Shown here one piece after another: positions 3,001-17,128 of a DNA stretch of 20,375 nt. The stretch is from positions 1 to 20,375 of IMG/VR virus record IMGVR_UViG_3300042505_000144; one strand, given 5' to 3'. Positions within the stretch are counted from its first letter, which is position 1. Each line of letters begins with the position of its first letter. The notes below the pieces were generated by a model that was not told the DNA's origin, searched no databases, and was given only the letters and a program-made list of their open reading frames with translations. A program made the translations under genes and the position numbers. The stretch comes from a virus.

Positions 3001-5815
3001 TCTGACTTAATTCAACTAAGTGATTTCGCATCTGACCTAATGTCAGTGATGTTAAGTTAACACCCTGCGCATTTAGATCTAAGTTACTAGGGACTTGATA
3101 GTGTCCTAATTTACTAATTTGTCTACTGTGGATTAATAGATCAACTTTATCGTTGACTGTCAGCGGGTATGTATTAAGAATATGAATACCATTCTTTTTA
3201 GTATAAACATCTGCGCTGTTAGCCAATACCAAATTCCATTGGCTATTTGGCACTAATTTATTATTAACAAAAACTTTTACATAAGGGATTGTTGCTTCTG
3301 TTTCTGGTAGAATATCAATATAGAATTTTTGATCGTCGTTAACGGTACCTATGTTTTTACCAATTTGATTATTGCCGTCATATACTGTGTTAATAATTTG
3401 GTATTGTCTACTAGCTTCAACTACAGTTCTCCAAGTATTAGCAGATTTAACTGTATTTCTATCTACAGTTTTCTGCAACAAGCCGGAACCCACATCAACA
3501 GATAGTGTTTCGTTGTTAACCACATAGGTAAACGTATCATTACTAAAATAGTTAAGGAATTGGATATCGCCCTGTGTTTGGAAATTTTTATACGTTAGTG
3601 GAAATCCTAGTACTAAGTCATTTACTCCGGCAGTATTGCGTTGGTACCCAAATATTTTACAGCCGGTAAATGCGCTTCTAGGATATGTTGTGGTATCACT
3701 GAAGCTAATTCCGCTGTTATTAAATACATCAAATAATGGGTCTTGTTGTAGGGTAGTTTTTTGTTGACTTTCTAACCAACTAGTACCATCATACCACCAT
3801 TGGCTACCTTTGTAATTTCCGTTTGTAACTGCTACAGTGTCGTATATCTCACTGTCGCCGTCGTCGGCTATGGTCAATTTGATATAAAAATCACCTTCTG
3901 GGATTCCTGTTACAGGATTTGCGTCATATTGAACTAAATTTACTACATAAATTTTATCACGTACTAATGGGTCAACTGCTGATCCAAATAACACACGAAG
4001 ACCGTCGGTTAGAGTAATACCAAATGCCCCACTTAGTGTTTTACCTTCTAATGTATTAAACGGGTCTGTGGTATTTGTATCTAAAATATCAATGGCACGT
4101 TTACCGATTCTACCATTGTTAAATAGTCTGTAATCACTTTCAAATTGGACGATAGGGCGTTGCGCACGCAAGGTTTGGTTAAATGATAATAATGTACCAT
4201 TATACTCAGATGTTGCTACAATAACCTCTCTATGGAACCAACGATTATTGCGTGCCCATGCGTTAAGATCTAACGCATCGCGTTTGATTGTAATATATTC
4301 TGGGAATACTTGATCAGGATAGTTTACTGCTAATTCATCATTGTATAGTTCTGGTGTCACTAGCAATGTTACGTCTACTAGTCGAATCGCATCACCAACG
4401 TTTTCTACGTAATAGGTATTGTTTTGATAGCTAGCCGGAGTTACATCATTTTCAAAATGTATTTTTAATCCGCTGGTAAATTTAACACCGTTCGGGCTAG
4501 TATAAGTTTTCTTACCTAGAATATCGTTCTCTACATCAATCACAAAATTAGTCGAATCAACAATTTTAATGAATGAATAAATGCCGGGGTCTGTGCCGTC
4601 TTGGATATACAATGTATCCTGTACCGCAGTAATATGTGGCACTCGACGTAGTTGCCCGTCTAATTCTTTATAGAACTCTTTGTTAGCATTGCCAATACCG
4701 TACTTAATATATACTTTTTCTTCAATGGCTATGTCTTGCTCGTATACCAAGCGAATCAATGGATCACCGGCACCACCATCAGTGTACAGTACTTTCCATA
4801 CACCAAATCTTTGGTTCTCTGGAACTGCTACGCCTGCGTCATATCCATCAATTGCTAACCCATCACGATCAAACACACCACGGGCAACCCATGCTTCTTC
4901 GGTTGACTCTGACCACTTGTCTACATCAACAAATACCAATGTTTTGCCGTTGAGCTGACCAGTAATGCCTGCGTATTGCGGATATTCTTCTAGGAAATCG
5001 CTTAAAATACGATTATGTAATTTGCTATAAGGAATAGGTGCCGCATAATCTACATTGTAGACTGAGCTCATTAGTGTATAACGATCTTGCGCATCTTTTT
5101 GTGGCACATCAAATATTACTGCGCCGGTTTCTAGGCCGTTGTTGTATACACCAAGTACATCTCTTGTGCTAACTGTAGGAGTCGCGTTAACTTTGCCGTC
5201 TAGTCCCAACTCACTTTGAATCCAAAATTTATGTCCTGGTTGATTAATATTAAATGTATATGTGCCGCCGCGTGCCAATGTTATGGTGTTATTTTTTAGA
5301 TTGCCAATATCAAAATCGTAGGTGTTAGTTGTAACATTACGAGTTACATCAAACGATTTAACTAGAGGTACTCCGGTTGTGTTAACGTGTACTGTGTCGG
5401 GTCCGTCGGGCAACCAGTAGTACTGACCAAAGTTAACAAACTTGTCAAAGCTAATACCTGGATCATATGTGTAGTATTCGTTTTTAAATAAACGACTATG
5501 GTCTGTTATTGAGCCGCCATAGTACTTAACTTTGTTTAGAAAGTCAATGTAACTGGCAAAGAAAGTAACATCACCCGACTCATTTTTAATTAATACACTA
5601 GGTTCAAGTTGATAATTTTCTCTATTAGCATTGTTTTCTAATAGATAGCTATCTGTGCTTTTATATGTTGGAGCAAATTTACGGCCAATATAACCATTGA
5701 TATTCTTCAGTGATGGTTCGCTGATTAATTGATCAATCGTCGCAGATAAAAACTTGTCGTTGATGTCTGTTTGAAATATTTGTGGAAGTAAATTTATACT
5801 TTTTCTTGCGGCCAT
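1..5815 (-). CDS. Giant baseplate-associated structural protein, C-terminus cut by window edge (VrlC-like / gp7-position)
   Basis: I read this frame codon by codon from the ATG at 5815 down to about 4920 and again from about 4980 to base 1 in sampled and continuous stretches; I found no stop, giving at least 1938 codons with the end outside the window. It follows gp6 directly, where T4 has gp7 (1032 residues). The sequence is rich in Tyr, Asn and Thr, looks beta-rich, and shows no signal peptide or membrane segment. Distinctive stretches are WARNNRWFHREVI (from residue 520), QQDPLFDVF (from 690) and RPWEMLGFSIKPNWW (from 1291), the last followed by NYYGPAPYTGGN. From memory, such motifs occur in very large proteins next to gp6 in marine T4-like phages, often annotated 'VrlC' or virulence-associated. 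A baseplate wedge or peripheral baseplate role is inferred from position; no enzymatic motif was seen. The start is preceded by a weak AGAGA ribosome site and a late-promoter-like element. Confidence 0.8.
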   Translation of the reverse strand, partial: MAARKSINLLPQIFQTDINDKFLSATIDQLISEPSLKNINGYIGRKFAPTYKSTDSYLLENNANRENYQLEPSVLIKNESGDVTFFASYIDFLNKVKYYGGSITDHSRLFKNEYYTYDPGISFDKFVNFGQYYWLPDGPDTVHVNTTGVPLVKSFDVTRNVTTNTYDFDIGNLKNNTITLARGGTYTFNINQPGHKFWIQSELGLDGKVNATPTVSTRDVLGVYNNGLETGAVIFDVPQKDAQDRYTLMSSVYNVDYAAPIPYSKLHNRILSDFLEEYPQYAGITGQLNGKTLVFVDVDKWSESTEEAWVARGVFDRDGLAIDGYDAGVAVPENQRFGVWKVLYTDGGAGDPLIRLVYEQDIAIEEKVYIKYGIGNANKEFYKELDGQLRRVPHITAVQDTLYIQDGTDPGIYSFIKIVDSTNFVIDVENDILGKKTYTSPNGVKFTSGLKIHFENDVTPASYQNNTYYVENVGDAIRLVDVTLLVTPELYNDELAVNYPDQVFPEYITIKRDALDLNAWARNNRWFHREVIVATSEYNGTLLSFNQTLRAQRPIVQFESDYRLFNNGRIGKRAIDILDTNTTDPFNTLEGKTLSGAFGITLTDGLRVLFGSAVDPLVRDKIYVVNLVQYDANPVTGIPEGDFYIKLTIADDGDSEIYDTVAVTNGNYKGSQWWYDGTSWLESQQKTTLQQDPLFDVFNNSGISFSDTTTYPRSAFTGCKIFGYQRNTAGVNDLVLGFPLTYKNFQTQGDIQFLNYFSNDTFTYVVNNETLSVDVGSGLLQKTVDRNTVKSANTWRTVVEASRQYQIINTVYDGNNQIGKNIGTVNDDQKFYIDILPETEATIPYVKVFVNNKLVPNSQWNLVLANSADVYTKKNGIHILNTYPLTVNDKVDLLIHSRQISKLGHYQVPSNLDLNAQGVNLTSLTLGQMRNHLVELSQNSFAIDGNILGTSDLRDIELKAQGGTILQHSAPLPYASLFLLDEQASYIDSLKYAQKEYTKFKNKFIELSSSLPGIDPMNPVASVDLILTQINANKNSTFSWFYSDMVPYGTLKTTINYTVFDPLVTEYQITNVFNDTTLSGLAVLVYLNDVQLVKDRDYTFSKVSPSIVFNTDAITLTIDDKITFVEYSNTDGAYIPETPTKLGLYPKFIPELYEDDTYRITINAIRGHDGSITPAFNDYRDNILLELEKRIFNNIKLVDTGIYKNIYHILPSKFRNNDYSNVEINNVLTKSFLSWVGNNKLDYTSNSLFESNDAFTWNYNLFVDRLDNEYLPGSWRACYMYFYDTIAPHQRPWEMLGFSIKPNWWENYYGPAPYTGGNGLLWEDLEAGLIVDGDRAGIDKQFARPGLTSIIPVDENGFLLSPAAIIAKATNSTKAATSWAIGQIGPVEWTWRASSDYPFAVNQALALTRPAMYFGRFIDTYNIKFNSDLDQYLTANNQHVNQKEIYYNGDTSSGSVKRSAGYLNWIADYLTNLGISPEVKLKGMIQNYQVNLAYKMAGFTDKKFLNVLAEQSSPTSTNESVLLPDENYNIYLYKSTPIDKVVYSGVIVEKTSNGYTVRGYDLNNPYFTIIPSVVNTNAFKITVLNADGTIFRDYQNIKLTVPYGYEFKSRQQVVDFLISYERYLMALGFQFNEYDGQLKETRNFKLSAKEFLFWAQQGWNVGSLMILSPIVNYLKVNTNGSIVDAISNSQYSSRILDQNFNLVKNTSYNVTRSANNFSVSLTDANSVLAFAELNLVQYEHVLIFDNSTVFNDVIYRPELGNRQYRLKLVGQKTANWDGSLYAPGFVYNSGDVQTWQQGKDYLKGDLVEYKNLYYVALKLVPAAVDFDFSVWKQLSSSEIKTGLLPNWSTIAVKPQSYYDSYSDFDDENVIKYSHGLIGYKPRQYLADLGLSDTTQIEFYKGYIRQKGSANAVNELTRAEFNNLKSAINYYEEWAVRVG

Positions 5816-5842
5816 TGTTGTAAGATCTCTTTTGCTATAATG

Positions 5843-5850
5843 TATTTAAA
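5843..5850 (-). promoter_or_regulatory. Probable T4-type late promoter for the giant baseplate gene
   Basis: On the minus strand this reads TTTAAATA, 7 of 8 matches to the T4 late element TATAAATA, and it is followed by CATTATAG. Almost the same downstream extension, CATTATAA, follows the gp6 late element. The element lies in the 41-nt gap after the gp6 stop codon, so initiation about 6 nt downstream would give a leader of roughly 22 nt before the ATG at 5815. Late promoters of this type are recognised by host RNA polymerase carrying gp55, which is encoded in this window. Confidence 0.55.
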
Positions 5851-9222: not shown

Positions 9223-9223
9223 A

Positions 9224-9262
9224 CTTATTTCCTGTTATAATGTATTTATCAGGAAATATAAG
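9224..9262 (-). promoter_or_regulatory. RNA hairpin covering the gp6 ribosome binding site
   Basis: An imperfect inverted repeat fills most of the gap between gp25 and gp6. On the minus strand the upstream arm is CTTATATTTCCTG (9262-9250) and the downstream arm CAGGAAATAAG (9234-9224). They can form 11 base pairs with one 2-nt bulge around a 15-nt loop. The downstream arm contains the gp6 Shine-Dalgarno AGGA (9230-9233). The loop contains the late promoter. mRNA reading through from gp25 could therefore fold and hide the ribosome site, while mRNA started inside the loop would lack the upstream arm. No U-run follows either arm, so it is not a standard terminator. Confidence 0.65.
9243..9250 (-). 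promoter_or_regulatory. Probable T4-type late promoter for gp6
   Basis: The minus strand reads GATAAATA, 7 of 8 matches to TATAAATA, followed by CATTATAA. Initiation about 6 nt downstream (near 9237) would give a leader of about 15 nt carrying AGGA and then the gp6 ATG. The spacing fits a functional late promoter, and its place inside a hairpin loop suggests it is used to express gp6 separately from the upstream genes. Confidence 0.6.
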
Positions 9263-9273
9263 TGCGTAGTTTA

Positions 9274-9651: not shown

Positions 9652-9659
9652 AGTAATAT

Positions 9660-11771
9660 TTATCCAGCGTTGATCTCTGGCATTTTAGGTGCCAGCACTG
9701 ATACAGCATATTTGCCTGTTTTGAAATACAAGCTACCGGTTGTACCATTGCCGTCCTGCCCACTACCTGTTTTGCGCCAAGTATTTGCTCCGCTTGCGCC
9801 CAACATGTGTCCGGTCATCAACATACCACCAACATCTTCTGGGGTCATATCTTTGGTAATAGCACCGTTGCTAATCATGTCAGAATAGTTCTGAGCTGTA
9901 AATTGTTCCATTATTTTTTCTTGTAGTGCTGGATTGTTAAGGAATTCGTCTTGGCTAGCACATTTATTAGCGACCCAGCTGTTAGGATTGTTTAGTAGAG
10001 CCTTGTGCTTTTCTGCTCCTAGCTGTTTATAGCTGGTTACTAATCCTGATTTAATATAACCCATACGTTGTAGGGCTTCTGCGCCAAATTGATATTTTCC
10101 TATATAACCAAAAGGATTAATGCTAGTGTAATTTCCGCCACTTTCACTGTTACCAATTTGTGCTAGTAATGCTGTCATTTGTTCTTTTGATAGATTGCCT
10201 ACAGTACTACCGGGGTCGGGTTGATTTCTTAAAGATTTATCACCTGCGGGTTTATGTAGACCTGCGCCCGTGACAGTTTTTGTAGCATCCGATGCTCCAT
10301 CAAATTTTTCCTGTGGAGTAACTCCGGCAGCCTCTGATTTGAAATATTCAACACTAGCACCTCTGTAGTAGGGCTCGTGTGTTGGTGCCGCTGTAACTAT
10401 AGTATTCAACGCTTTAGCTTTGTTTAGCCAAACCCCTAGTGAGGAATCAAATGTAACATCCGGCAGGTCGTTAGTCGGCAACGGAGTTAGTTTGTTAACT
10501 ATATTAGTTCCGCCGCTTTGTTGTAGTAGTTGTGATCCTTCTATTGCTATTGCTCCGCCAGCTTTTAACGATATCTTGGCTTCTACGTCAAAGTTACAGG
10601 TGCCGCCTACTTTAAATTCACTGTTGCTAGCAGACTCTAAACTAAATTTATTCTGTAGTAGATTTGTAGTAACGCTGTTAACTTGAAACTTGTTGCCGGC
10701 TCTAAAATTAATATTGTTTTTAGCTTCGATATTAATCGAACTGTCAGAGTGTAGATTTATACTACCTTCACTGCGAACATGAAATCCAGACTTAGCATAT
10801 ATTTTAACTGCGCCTTGTGGAGTTAGTTCTATCCAGCTGGTGCCATCTGCGTGACTTATGTATAGATTATTAGCAGTGTCATGCATCAACACCTGATGAC
10901 CTTTTGCTGTGCGTAGACGCACCAGCTGATCCTCACCCAATGTTGCTCCATCGTCCATGACAAACGTGTGCCCACCTTTGCGTGATTTTACACGGAAGTA
11001 TTCTTTGTCAATTTCACCAGAGTTTAATTTAGCTTCGTACTGCCCGTCGTCGGCCGGATCATTCATTGGACGACCTGGTGTGCTGATACCAAATACATGA
11101 CTAGGAGTTTCGCGTTGGCTACTGCTGGTTGTAGATCCTCGAATTGGATCTCTATCTAGACCTTGATTTTTTAATATATTATACTGTACCGTGTGTACAG
11201 GTTTTGGTAAATTATAAAACTGTGGACTGCTTACGCTATCTTTGTTGTTTTCATTAAACTCAACTACTGGTACCGGAATACCGTAGATTAATGTTTTCTT
11301 ATCTCCGGCTTCAGCCGTGGCCACTTCAAAATTTGTACTACCTGCCATGCCTGGTAACATGTGATGACTTAGATTAGAGTTAACACAAGCCAACCAATAA
11401 CCCCTTAATGGATCGCCAGCAACAAACAGTACAATGACTTCTACACCTAAATCAGGTGGCACTGCCCACATGCCATAGGTATGGGTCACTGTGTCAAATT
11501 TGTTTTCTGTTTGATAAGGATCGGCTGCTTTTTGTTCAGTGCTGGTATAGCCCATAAACGGACTAGCATAACTTACTGTACGCCAGTTTTTTTGATCATC
11601 AGGATTACCACCTAGGTCAGGAATGAATACCTGTAAGCGGCCAGACCGGGTAGGATCTAAATTGTTTTTTACTACACCAATATACGGATATGGGTCAACA
11701 CGTGTGCCCGGAGCATCTTCGCGTCTAATATGTTTTGATACTTTACTACCCGTTCTTTGATCTATTGCCAT
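9660..11771 (-). CDS. gp5: Baseplate central spike gp5 with C-terminal peptidoglycan hydrolase domain
   Basis: gp5 is the cell-puncturing spike under the hub. This copy has 703 residues (T4 gp5: 575). Residues ~28-135 form the OB-fold collar domain (PYIGVVKNNLDP, RLQVFIPDLGG, GYWLACV). Residues ~265-425 show short alternating repeats of a triple-stranded beta-helix (INLHSDSSINIEA, INFRAG). A linker follows, then residues ~525-690 resemble a transglycosylase/lysozyme-like hydrolase: IGNSESGGNY with candidate catalytic Glu543, and GKYQFG at 558-563. In T4 the lysozyme sits between OB fold and helix; here that place (135-265) has no visible hydrolase motif. The gene starts 3 nt after the hub-protein stop, consistent with co-assembly of spike and hub. 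The assignment to gp5 is strong; the exact hydrolase family is inferred from a few motifs. Confidence 0.9.
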   Translation of the reverse strand: MAIDQRTGSKVSKHIRREDAPGTRVDPYPYIGVVKNNLDPTRSGRLQVFIPDLGGNPDDQKNWRTVSYASPFMGYTSTEQKAADPYQTENKFDTVTHTYGMWAVPPDLGVEVIVLFVAGDPLRGYWLACVNSNLSHHMLPGMAGSTNFEVATAEAGDKKTLIYGIPVPVVEFNENNKDSVSSPQFYNLPKPVHTVQYNILKNQGLDRDPIRGSTTSSSQRETPSHVFGISTPGRPMNDPADDGQYEAKLNSGEIDKEYFRVKSRKGGHTFVMDDGATLGEDQLVRLRTAKGHQVLMHDTANNLYISHADGTSWIELTPQGAVKIYAKSGFHVRSEGSINLHSDSSINIEAKNNINFRAGNKFQVNSVTTNLLQNKFSLESASNSEFKVGGTCNFDVEAKISLKAGGAIAIEGSQLLQQSGGTNIVNKLTPLPTNDLPDVTFDSSLGVWLNKAKALNTIVTAAPTHEPYYRGASVEYFKSEAAGVTPQEKFDGASDATKTVTGAGLHKPAGDKSLRNQPDPGSTVGNLSKEQMTALLAQIGNSESGGNYTSINPFGYIGKYQFGAEALQRMGYIKSGLVTSYKQLGAEKHKALLNNPNSWVANKCASQDEFLNNPALQEKIMEQFTAQNYSDMISNGAITKDMTPEDVGGMLMTGHMLGASGANTWRKTGSGQDGNGTTGSLYFKTGKYAVSVLAPKMPEINAG

Positions 11772-16195: not shown

Positions 16196-16225
16196 TTGCT
16201 TTCATGTATTTATAGGCTTTATAAT
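16196..16225 (+). promoter_or_regulatory. Sigma70-like promoter for gp55
   Basis: TTGCTT (16196-16201) and TATAAT (16220-16225) are spaced by 18 nt. The -10 box is perfect, the -35 box keeps TTG. Start of transcription would be near 16232, leaving a short leader with the AAGGA ribosome site. Host sigma70 would thus make gp55 before late transcription starts. The -35 box lies within the spacer of the inverted repeat, so late-promoter occupancy could interfere with it. Confidence 0.55.
16207..16214 (-). promoter_or_regulatory. T4-type late promoter for the leftward baseplate genes
   Basis: The minus strand reads TATAAATA, an exact match to the T4 late consensus, followed by CATGAAAG. Transcription starting about 6 nt downstream (near 16201) would give a leader of about 20 nt with AGAGG before the gp48-like ATG. 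It is the only perfect leftward element I found and likely drives the whole structural unit. Confidence 0.75.
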
Positions 16226-16252: not shown

Positions 16253-17128
16253 ATGAGAAAGGTAAATTATCTTAACAATAAAGATATTCTTAAAGAAATT
16301 CATAAAAGTAAAACAACATATTGTAGCTTTGTTAGTCCAACTGACAGTAGTTATGACATGATCGTAGCAAGTATTGATAAAATAAACAAAAAATCCATAG
16401 CAGAAGCACGCAAAGCACGTGCCGAACGTCTAGCCAAAGAACAACAAGAAATTGATCTGTTAAATGGTGTCAAGAAAAAATTAGATGAATATCTAACAGC
16501 ATTAGGTAAAATTCCCCAAACAGATGTAGTGTTCCGTGTTATGACCTGGGATCATATACCTATTGACGACATCAAACAAAAGAAAGCAGATGCTAAAGCA
16601 CAGGAGGAATGGTACGAAGAAAACTTTGAAACTGAATACGATGAGCCTATGGTTATTAAAGGCGCAACCAAGTACACTAAAGTTAATTTCCCCCCATTTA
16701 AACATTACAAAGTAGATGAAGAAAGCAATCCAGTGCTAGTAGGAATTAGTCATTGGAAGGGCGACTTTGAAAAAGGTAAGTTTACCAAAGACCACGGGTC
16801 AATGACGCCTAAACTAGCACACATGTTTATTAAACTATGTGAACGCTATGCTACACGTAGTAACTGGCGTGGTTATACCTACAACGATGAAATGCGATCA
16901 CAGGCATTACTCCAGTTAAGTCAAATTGGCCTACAGTTTGACGAAGCAAAATCACAAAACCCATTTGCCTACTACACAGCGGCTATTACTAACAGCTTTA
17001 CACGTGTTCTAAACATTGAAAAGCGTAATCAAAACATTCGTGATGATATTTTAGAAATGAATAACTTTACTCCAAGCTATACACGCCAAGGAGATTGGGG
17101 TGGCGGTGGTTGGGGTGCTGACGAATAG
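16253..17128 (+). CDS. gp55: Late-transcription sigma factor gp55
   Basis: gp55 binds host RNA polymerase core and directs it to TATAAATA promoters such as those found here. The recognisable part is residues ~185-265: MFIKLCERYATRSNWRGYTY, then NDEMRSQALLQLSQIGLQFD and AYYTAAITNSFTRVLNIEKR, which matches the sigma region-2-like helices of gp55 that contact core and the promoter element. At 291 residues it is much longer than T4 gp55 (185). The extra part is mostly N-terminal: a basic, probably helical segment (residues 45-85, KARAERLAKEQQEIDLL) and an acidic stretch near 115-132. The C-terminus ends in a Gly/Trp-rich tail (DWGGGGWGADE); in T4 the C-terminus contacts the sliding clamp, and no clear clamp motif is seen here. 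Its place upstream of gp47-gp46 also fits T4-like phages. Confidence 0.87.
   Translation: MRKVNYLNNKDILKEIHKSKTTYCSFVSPTDSSYDMIVASIDKINKKSIAEARKARAERLAKEQQEIDLLNGVKKKLDEYLTALGKIPQTDVVFRVMTWDHIPIDDIKQKKADAKAQEEWYEENFETEYDEPMVIKGATKYTKVNFPPFKHYKVDEESNPVLVGISHWKGDFEKGKFTKDHGSMTPKLAHMFIKLCERYATRSNWRGYTYNDEMRSQALLQLSQIGLQFDEAKSQNPFAYYTAAITNSFTRVLNIEKRNQNIRDDILEMNNFTPSYTRQGDWGGGGWGADE

Follow-up and report, generated by a model that had tools for sequence, protein, structure and literature searches.

The gp25-gp6 junction

The window analysed here is the whole 20,375-base phage record IMGVR_UViG_3300042505_000144, from a T4-like environmental phage, and its T4-like baseplate genes lie on the minus strand (Table 1). 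The gaps in this operon are no longer than 8 nt up to gp25, and the first sizeable one is the 51 nt before gp6 (9273-9223). Both gp25 and gp5 are structural and presumably late genes. The gp55-like protein encoded on the plus strand is presumed to be the reader of the ATAAATA promoters. When an earlier promoter was sought upstream of gp6, sigma-70-like matches were at chance level.

Table 1. Positions of the genes and elements discussed, in window coordinates except for the last two rows
Feature	Position	Strand	Remarks
Upstream structural gene	16180-15194	-	Before gp53 in operon order
gp53	15194-14892	-	Operon
1037-aa protein	Between gp53 and gp5 in operon listing	-	
gp5	11771-9660	-	Operon
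gp25, baseplate wedge subunit, 125 aa	9274..9651	-	Stop codon 9276-9274
Upstream (anti-Shine-Dalgarno) arm CTTATATTTCCTG	9250..9262	-	Pairs with 9234-9224; lost when RNA starts near 9237
Late promoter element GATAAATA (T4 consensus TATAAATA)	9243..9250	-	Loop and closing stem base
Predicted late transcript start	9237..9237	-	T4 geometry
Downstream arm CAGGAAATAAG	9224..9234	-	Sequence, folding
gp6 Shine-Dalgarno AGGA	9230..9233	-	7 nt before ATG; inside 3' arm
gp6, baseplate wedge subunit, 1121 aa	5857..9222	-	phrog_10646 E=0; phrog_219 6e-26
gp55-like late sigma factor	16253..17128	+	phrog_12791 3e-79
Candidate upstream late promoter ATAAATA	16207..16213	-	Would serve operon reading through into gp6
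Repeated-leader sites of relative G001	69487, 310888	+	
	82786, 89241, 91841, 170291, 260122, 270185	-	Counted from other end

Read on the minus strand, the gp25 stop codon is followed by CTTATATTTCCTG (9262-9250), ATAAATA (9249-9243), CATTATAA (9242-9235), CAGGAAATAAG (9234-9224), a single T and the ATG (9222). The first-pass annotation had described a hairpin of 11 pairs with one 2-nt bulge, its arms bracketing a late promoter element and its downstream arm containing the gp6 AGGA. The sequence agrees on each point: 11 Watson-Crick pairs join the arms, interrupted by a 2-nt bulge, AGGA (9233-9230) falls within 9234-9224, and GATAAATA lies between the arms, its G closing the stem so that the element makes up the loop plus one stem base. 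RNAfold added four further inner AU pairs through ATAAATA, with an energy of -9.4 kcal/mol compared to -3.6 +/- 2.0 for shuffled sequences (z -2.9). In T4 late promoters the 8-bp TATA box precedes the start by about one helical turn (PMC2988020), and this geometry places the start near 9237, giving a gp6 leader of 15 nt.

The gap hairpin was rejected as an intrinsic terminator, its stem being AU-rich and followed by UAUGGC with no T run; a search of 9223-9273 on the minus strand found no GC-rich stem with a T run after it. Rfam gave no match at the gathering threshold anywhere in the window, and blastn of the gp6 leader against cultured phages returned none.

ATAAATA occurs four times in the window against 10.9 expected, each time at a gene start, which looks like selection against stray late promoters. 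At 9652-9664 (minus strand), the gp25 ribosome site, the gp5 stop codon and ATAAATA overlap in GGATAAATATTACTATG. As a gp25 promoter this ATAAATA (9663-9657) was rejected, since its RNA would begin exactly at the ATG and be leaderless; relatives also have GGTTAAATA or GGCTAAATA there. We take it for a ribosome site that shares letters with the stop codon of gp5, not for a promoter. The gap after gp6 (5815-5849, minus strand), with the next structural gene downstream, contains TTAAATACATTATA, one letter off the ATAAATACATTATA of gp6.

Accessibility of the gp6 ribosome site

It had been proposed that RNA reading through from gp25 could fold and block gp6 translation, while RNA started at the internal promoter would leave the site free. 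Folding of the leader with and without the upstream arm agreed with this in computation: freeing AGGA costs 8.5 kcal/mol in the read-through RNA and 1.2 kcal/mol in RNA from ~9237. The computed cost was 0.9-1.2 kcal/mol for every start from 9240 to 9234. With the 24 nt before the element shuffled 1000 times, the opening cost was 1.34 +/- 1.40, the native value being reached once. As in a T4-type switch, the Shine-Dalgarno is computed to be paired in the long transcript, and the late promoter is placed so that its RNA, from the predicted start, would lack the 5' arm.

Conservation of the pairing in relatives

When IMG/VR was scanned with gp6 and gp25, 70 distinct gp6 leaders were obtained, of which 69 were analysed, from phages with gp6 N-termini 61-100% alike. 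In these near relatives the gp25-gp6 gap is 45-56 nt, and ATAAATA (rarely a one-base variant) stands at a near-constant distance from the ATG. Mean Shine-Dalgarno opening over the 69 distinct leaders was 6.50 kcal/mol in read-through RNA, 0.85 in late RNA and 2.60 with the upstream 30 nt shuffled. Read-through and late opening differed by at least 2 kcal/mol in 66 of the 69, and 67 exceeded their own shuffled mean. When arms were exchanged among 49 near representatives, own arms paired at -8.68 compared to -7.35 for exchanged ones (sd 0.26, 0/10000 permutations), and the effect held in 13 representatives below 78% identity (p=0.001). Among 34 disjoint sister pairs, own arms were favoured in 22 and hybrids in nine (Wilcoxon p=0.007). 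One close relative, L083, is without the upstream arm and has instead a 9-pair hairpin, ATACTGTAT-AACAGGA-ATACAGTAT, with AGGA in the loop; the 5' arm of this hairpin lies mostly before the predicted start, and its computed Shine-Dalgarno opening is only 1.9.

Two further scans supplied 91 distant leaders, which were not used to form the hypothesis and are independent of the 49 near ones. Here too own arms were favoured over exchanged ones (-6.85 vs -5.37, sd 0.20, 0/10000). Of the distant leaders, 86 had an element and a late leader that could be computed; the opening difference was at least 2 kcal/mol in 55 of these and below 2 in 31. With about a third of them under this value, the accessibility difference is not universal.

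Individual leaders show how the pairing is retained. Compensatory changes convert CCTG/TAGG to CCAA/TTGG (L121 vs L059) and TCCT/AGGA to ACCT/AGGT (L154). L274 pairs AATAATACC with GGTATTATT through an arm shifted upstream, and L250 pairs AATAATACCTGTT with AACAGGTATTATT through a different, more upstream arm. Covariation in fixed columns was not above shuffles (62.8% vs 61.8% paired), and RNAalifold predicted zero pairs in the full alignment of 49 leaders. We attribute both null results to clades that pair in registers shifted by 1-2 nt; support for the pairing therefore comes from the register-free duplex tests. The first-pass annotation had proposed that related gp25-gp6 gaps be aligned to look for paired base changes, and had named arms that vary without keeping pairing as evidence against its reading. 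Register-free tests and arm swaps bear out the paired changes, fixed-register covariation does not, and the relatives vary their arms and keep the pairing. These comparisons indicate that the pairing is kept by selection in the relatives. Well over a hundred related leaders keep it despite changes of letters, which makes a real switch very probable.

The same data bear on a simpler reading, an ordinary late promoter with a chance hairpin in a short AT-rich gap, where only the promoter and the ribosome site would matter. The short AT-rich sequence, the null fixed-register covariation and the distant leaders without pairing are in its favour. Against these stand the single window shuffle in 1000 that reached the native value, the 67 of 69 near leaders above their shuffled mean and the arm-swap tests in two leader sets, which already largely refute it, and we consider a chance hairpin very unlikely.

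The pairing could also act in DNA, as an inverted repeat binding a protein that represses or activates the late promoter, I-TevI, which acts so on its own late promoter, being the precedent (PMC2988022). The arms do flank the promoter, and in a tally of mismatches inside helices, made to separate the RNA from the DNA level, A-C (17) was about as common as G-U (23). A sequence-specific protein would not readily allow arm letters to change while pairing stays, however; the ribosome site almost always serves as the 3' arm, and pairing distance and register shift among relatives. Such a DNA palindrome is highly unlikely.

RNA processing or stability is a frequent role of intergenic hairpins. A hairpin cut by, for example, RNase III or RNase E, or one shielding a 5' end, would turn read-through RNA into gp6 mRNA, and in T4 the 5' ends mapped by primer extension cannot separate initiation from cleavage (PMC2988020). 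However, the conserved ATAAATA at near-fixed spacing already provides a 5' end, the stem is short and AU-rich, and the pairing aims specifically at the Shine-Dalgarno, so we regard processing as extremely unlikely.

Translational coupling, with ribosomes finishing gp25 melting the hairpin and gp6 translation depending on that of gp25, appears exceedingly improbable. The hairpin does begin near the leading edge of a terminating ribosome: its distance from the gp25 stop is 11 nt in the window, and 68 relatives have a median of 11 with a range of 4-20. From its footprint size, though, such a ribosome would reach the stem foot at most and not the Shine-Dalgarno pairs, and coupling would make the embedded promoter superfluous.

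The upstream arm and other late-type sites

Late-type ATAAATA sites near gene starts were compared in six related records and the window; the gp6 leaders ranked near the top for 5' pairing and most other sites were unpaired. The upstream arm is probably not promoter sequence, since most other ATAAATA sites do without the pairing and nothing upstream of the TATA box serves as an element in T4 late promoters (PMC2988020). A few other genes also showed pairing with 5' sequence: two for GIY-YIG homing endonucleases, one for a large structural protein and one for a head-tail adaptor, whose stem has 14 pairs.

The adaptor gene (phrog_211) is preceded, in L192 near 19289 (minus strand), by a perfect 14-pair hairpin, AAATTATCCTGTTG/CAACAGGATAATTT, around ATAAATA. 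In the relative G001, the ribosome site of two GIY-YIG genes pairs with 5' sequence. About eight genes of this record (loci L169-L185), at least one of them for a GIY-YIG homing endonuclease, have ATAAATA followed by a repeated leader, GTAGTT(CGCG)...CCAACTACTCTAACA (sites in Table 1), which is possibly a structured leader RNA. The Rfam freshwater-2 RNA (RF02980) was found with an ATAAATA late promoter motif on one side and the start of an unnamed gene (MGRPIK...) on the other, at L193:17316-17389 and L186:5879-5962 (both minus strand), the L186 copy being below the gathering score.

Comparison with T4 and with cultured phages

The first-pass annotation had likened the locus to T4 genes e, soc and I-TevI, where long RNA is silent and late RNA is translated, and published accounts show this to be right (PMC3014915, PMC2988022). 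At T4 gene e (lysozyme), the ribosome site is hidden by a hairpin whose 5' strand is encoded where the late promoters lie, and late RNA is without that strand; lysozyme synthesis from the long RNA is reported to be 100-fold lower (PMC3014915). The design is described for T4 genes e, soc, 49 and I-TevI (PMC3014915), and a review lists soc, e, 25, 26, homing endonucleases, segB and mobE, gp6 not being among them (PMC2988022). Among the papers searched, none described a late-promoter/Shine-Dalgarno hairpin at a baseplate wedge gene.

The gp6 locus resembles gene e in having a TATAAATA-type promoter in the 5'-strand region of the hairpin and a late RNA that would be without that strand. It differs in that early RNAs are silenced at gene e and the effect was measured, whereas here the upstream genes are structural and the switch is predicted by computation. 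T4 soc, 49, I-TevI/II/III and segB and Aeh1 mobE share the architecture in front of different genes; in the T4 examples the silenced RNAs are early or middle, whereas gp25 and gp5 upstream of gp6 are structural. The split ribosome site of T4 gene 25 is likewise an RNA structure at a baseplate gene start, but it helps translation by shortening the spacing (PMC3014915), whereas the gp6 hairpin would hinder it.

In Mimasvirus (GAP32, CBB, XbC2), Erwinia phage Hallingskeid and XaC1, gp6 likewise has its own ATAAATA late-type promoter. These phages differ in that an intrinsic-terminator-like hairpin precedes ATAAATA, and read-through would be blocked at transcription; their gp6 N-termini are about 40-44% identical. 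In each gp25-gp6 gap (L161, L162, L168, L160 and L167 for XbC2, GAP32, CBB, Hallingskeid and XaC1) the terminator-like hairpin lies directly upstream of ATAAATA. In cyanophage S-SM1 and Pelagibacter phage HTVC008M gp25 and gp6 overlap, and in cyanophage P-SSM2 they are 4 nt apart.

A proposed switch before gp6

Taken together, the computed hairpin, promoter motif, accessibility difference and conservation of pairing suggest that a cis-acting translational switch very probably precedes gp6, of the same late-promoter-in-hairpin type as in T4. The mechanism came through nearly all of the computational tests, with fixed-register covariation as the one exception. In read-through RNA from gp25, the 5' arm would pair with the gp6 Shine-Dalgarno region and keep the 30S subunit from binding. 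The RNA polymerase carrying gp55, the phage late sigma factor, would start at GATAAATA within the hairpin, near 9237, and the resulting mRNA, with a leader of ~15 nt and no 5' arm, would have an open ribosome site. The source of gp6 would then be its own late mRNA instead of the polycistron of the upstream baseplate genes. We infer the use of the promoter by gp55-polymerase, the start near 9237, the existence and poor translation of the read-through RNA and repression in vivo, and likewise a purpose in giving gp6 a separate dosage, which the first-pass annotation had tied to baseplate stoichiometry.

Since gp25 and gp5 are structural and presumably late, the switch would separate two late cistrons, and not early from late expression, barring an early transcript that runs unseen across the junction. 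In T4 it is early or middle RNA that is silenced, but both cistrons here look late, so the purpose may be insulation rather than timing.

With gp6, a control device long familiar from T4 is carried over to a core baseplate gene, in a group of T4-like phages that is large and mostly uncultured. That the pairing survives changes of sequence, of register and even of arm position lends this class of switch strong comparative support. A further question is why termination insulates the gp25-gp6 junction in one lineage and RNA folding in another, and why cyanophages leave it uninsulated. We tentatively suggest, at somewhat less than even odds, that a large environmental T4-like clade separates two late cistrons by a hairpin-promoter switch and that the same junction is insulated differently per lineage, by a terminator in Mimasvirus and not at all in cyanophages and HTVC008M. 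If true, such lineage-specific insulation would point to a selected need for setting gp6 dosage on its own.
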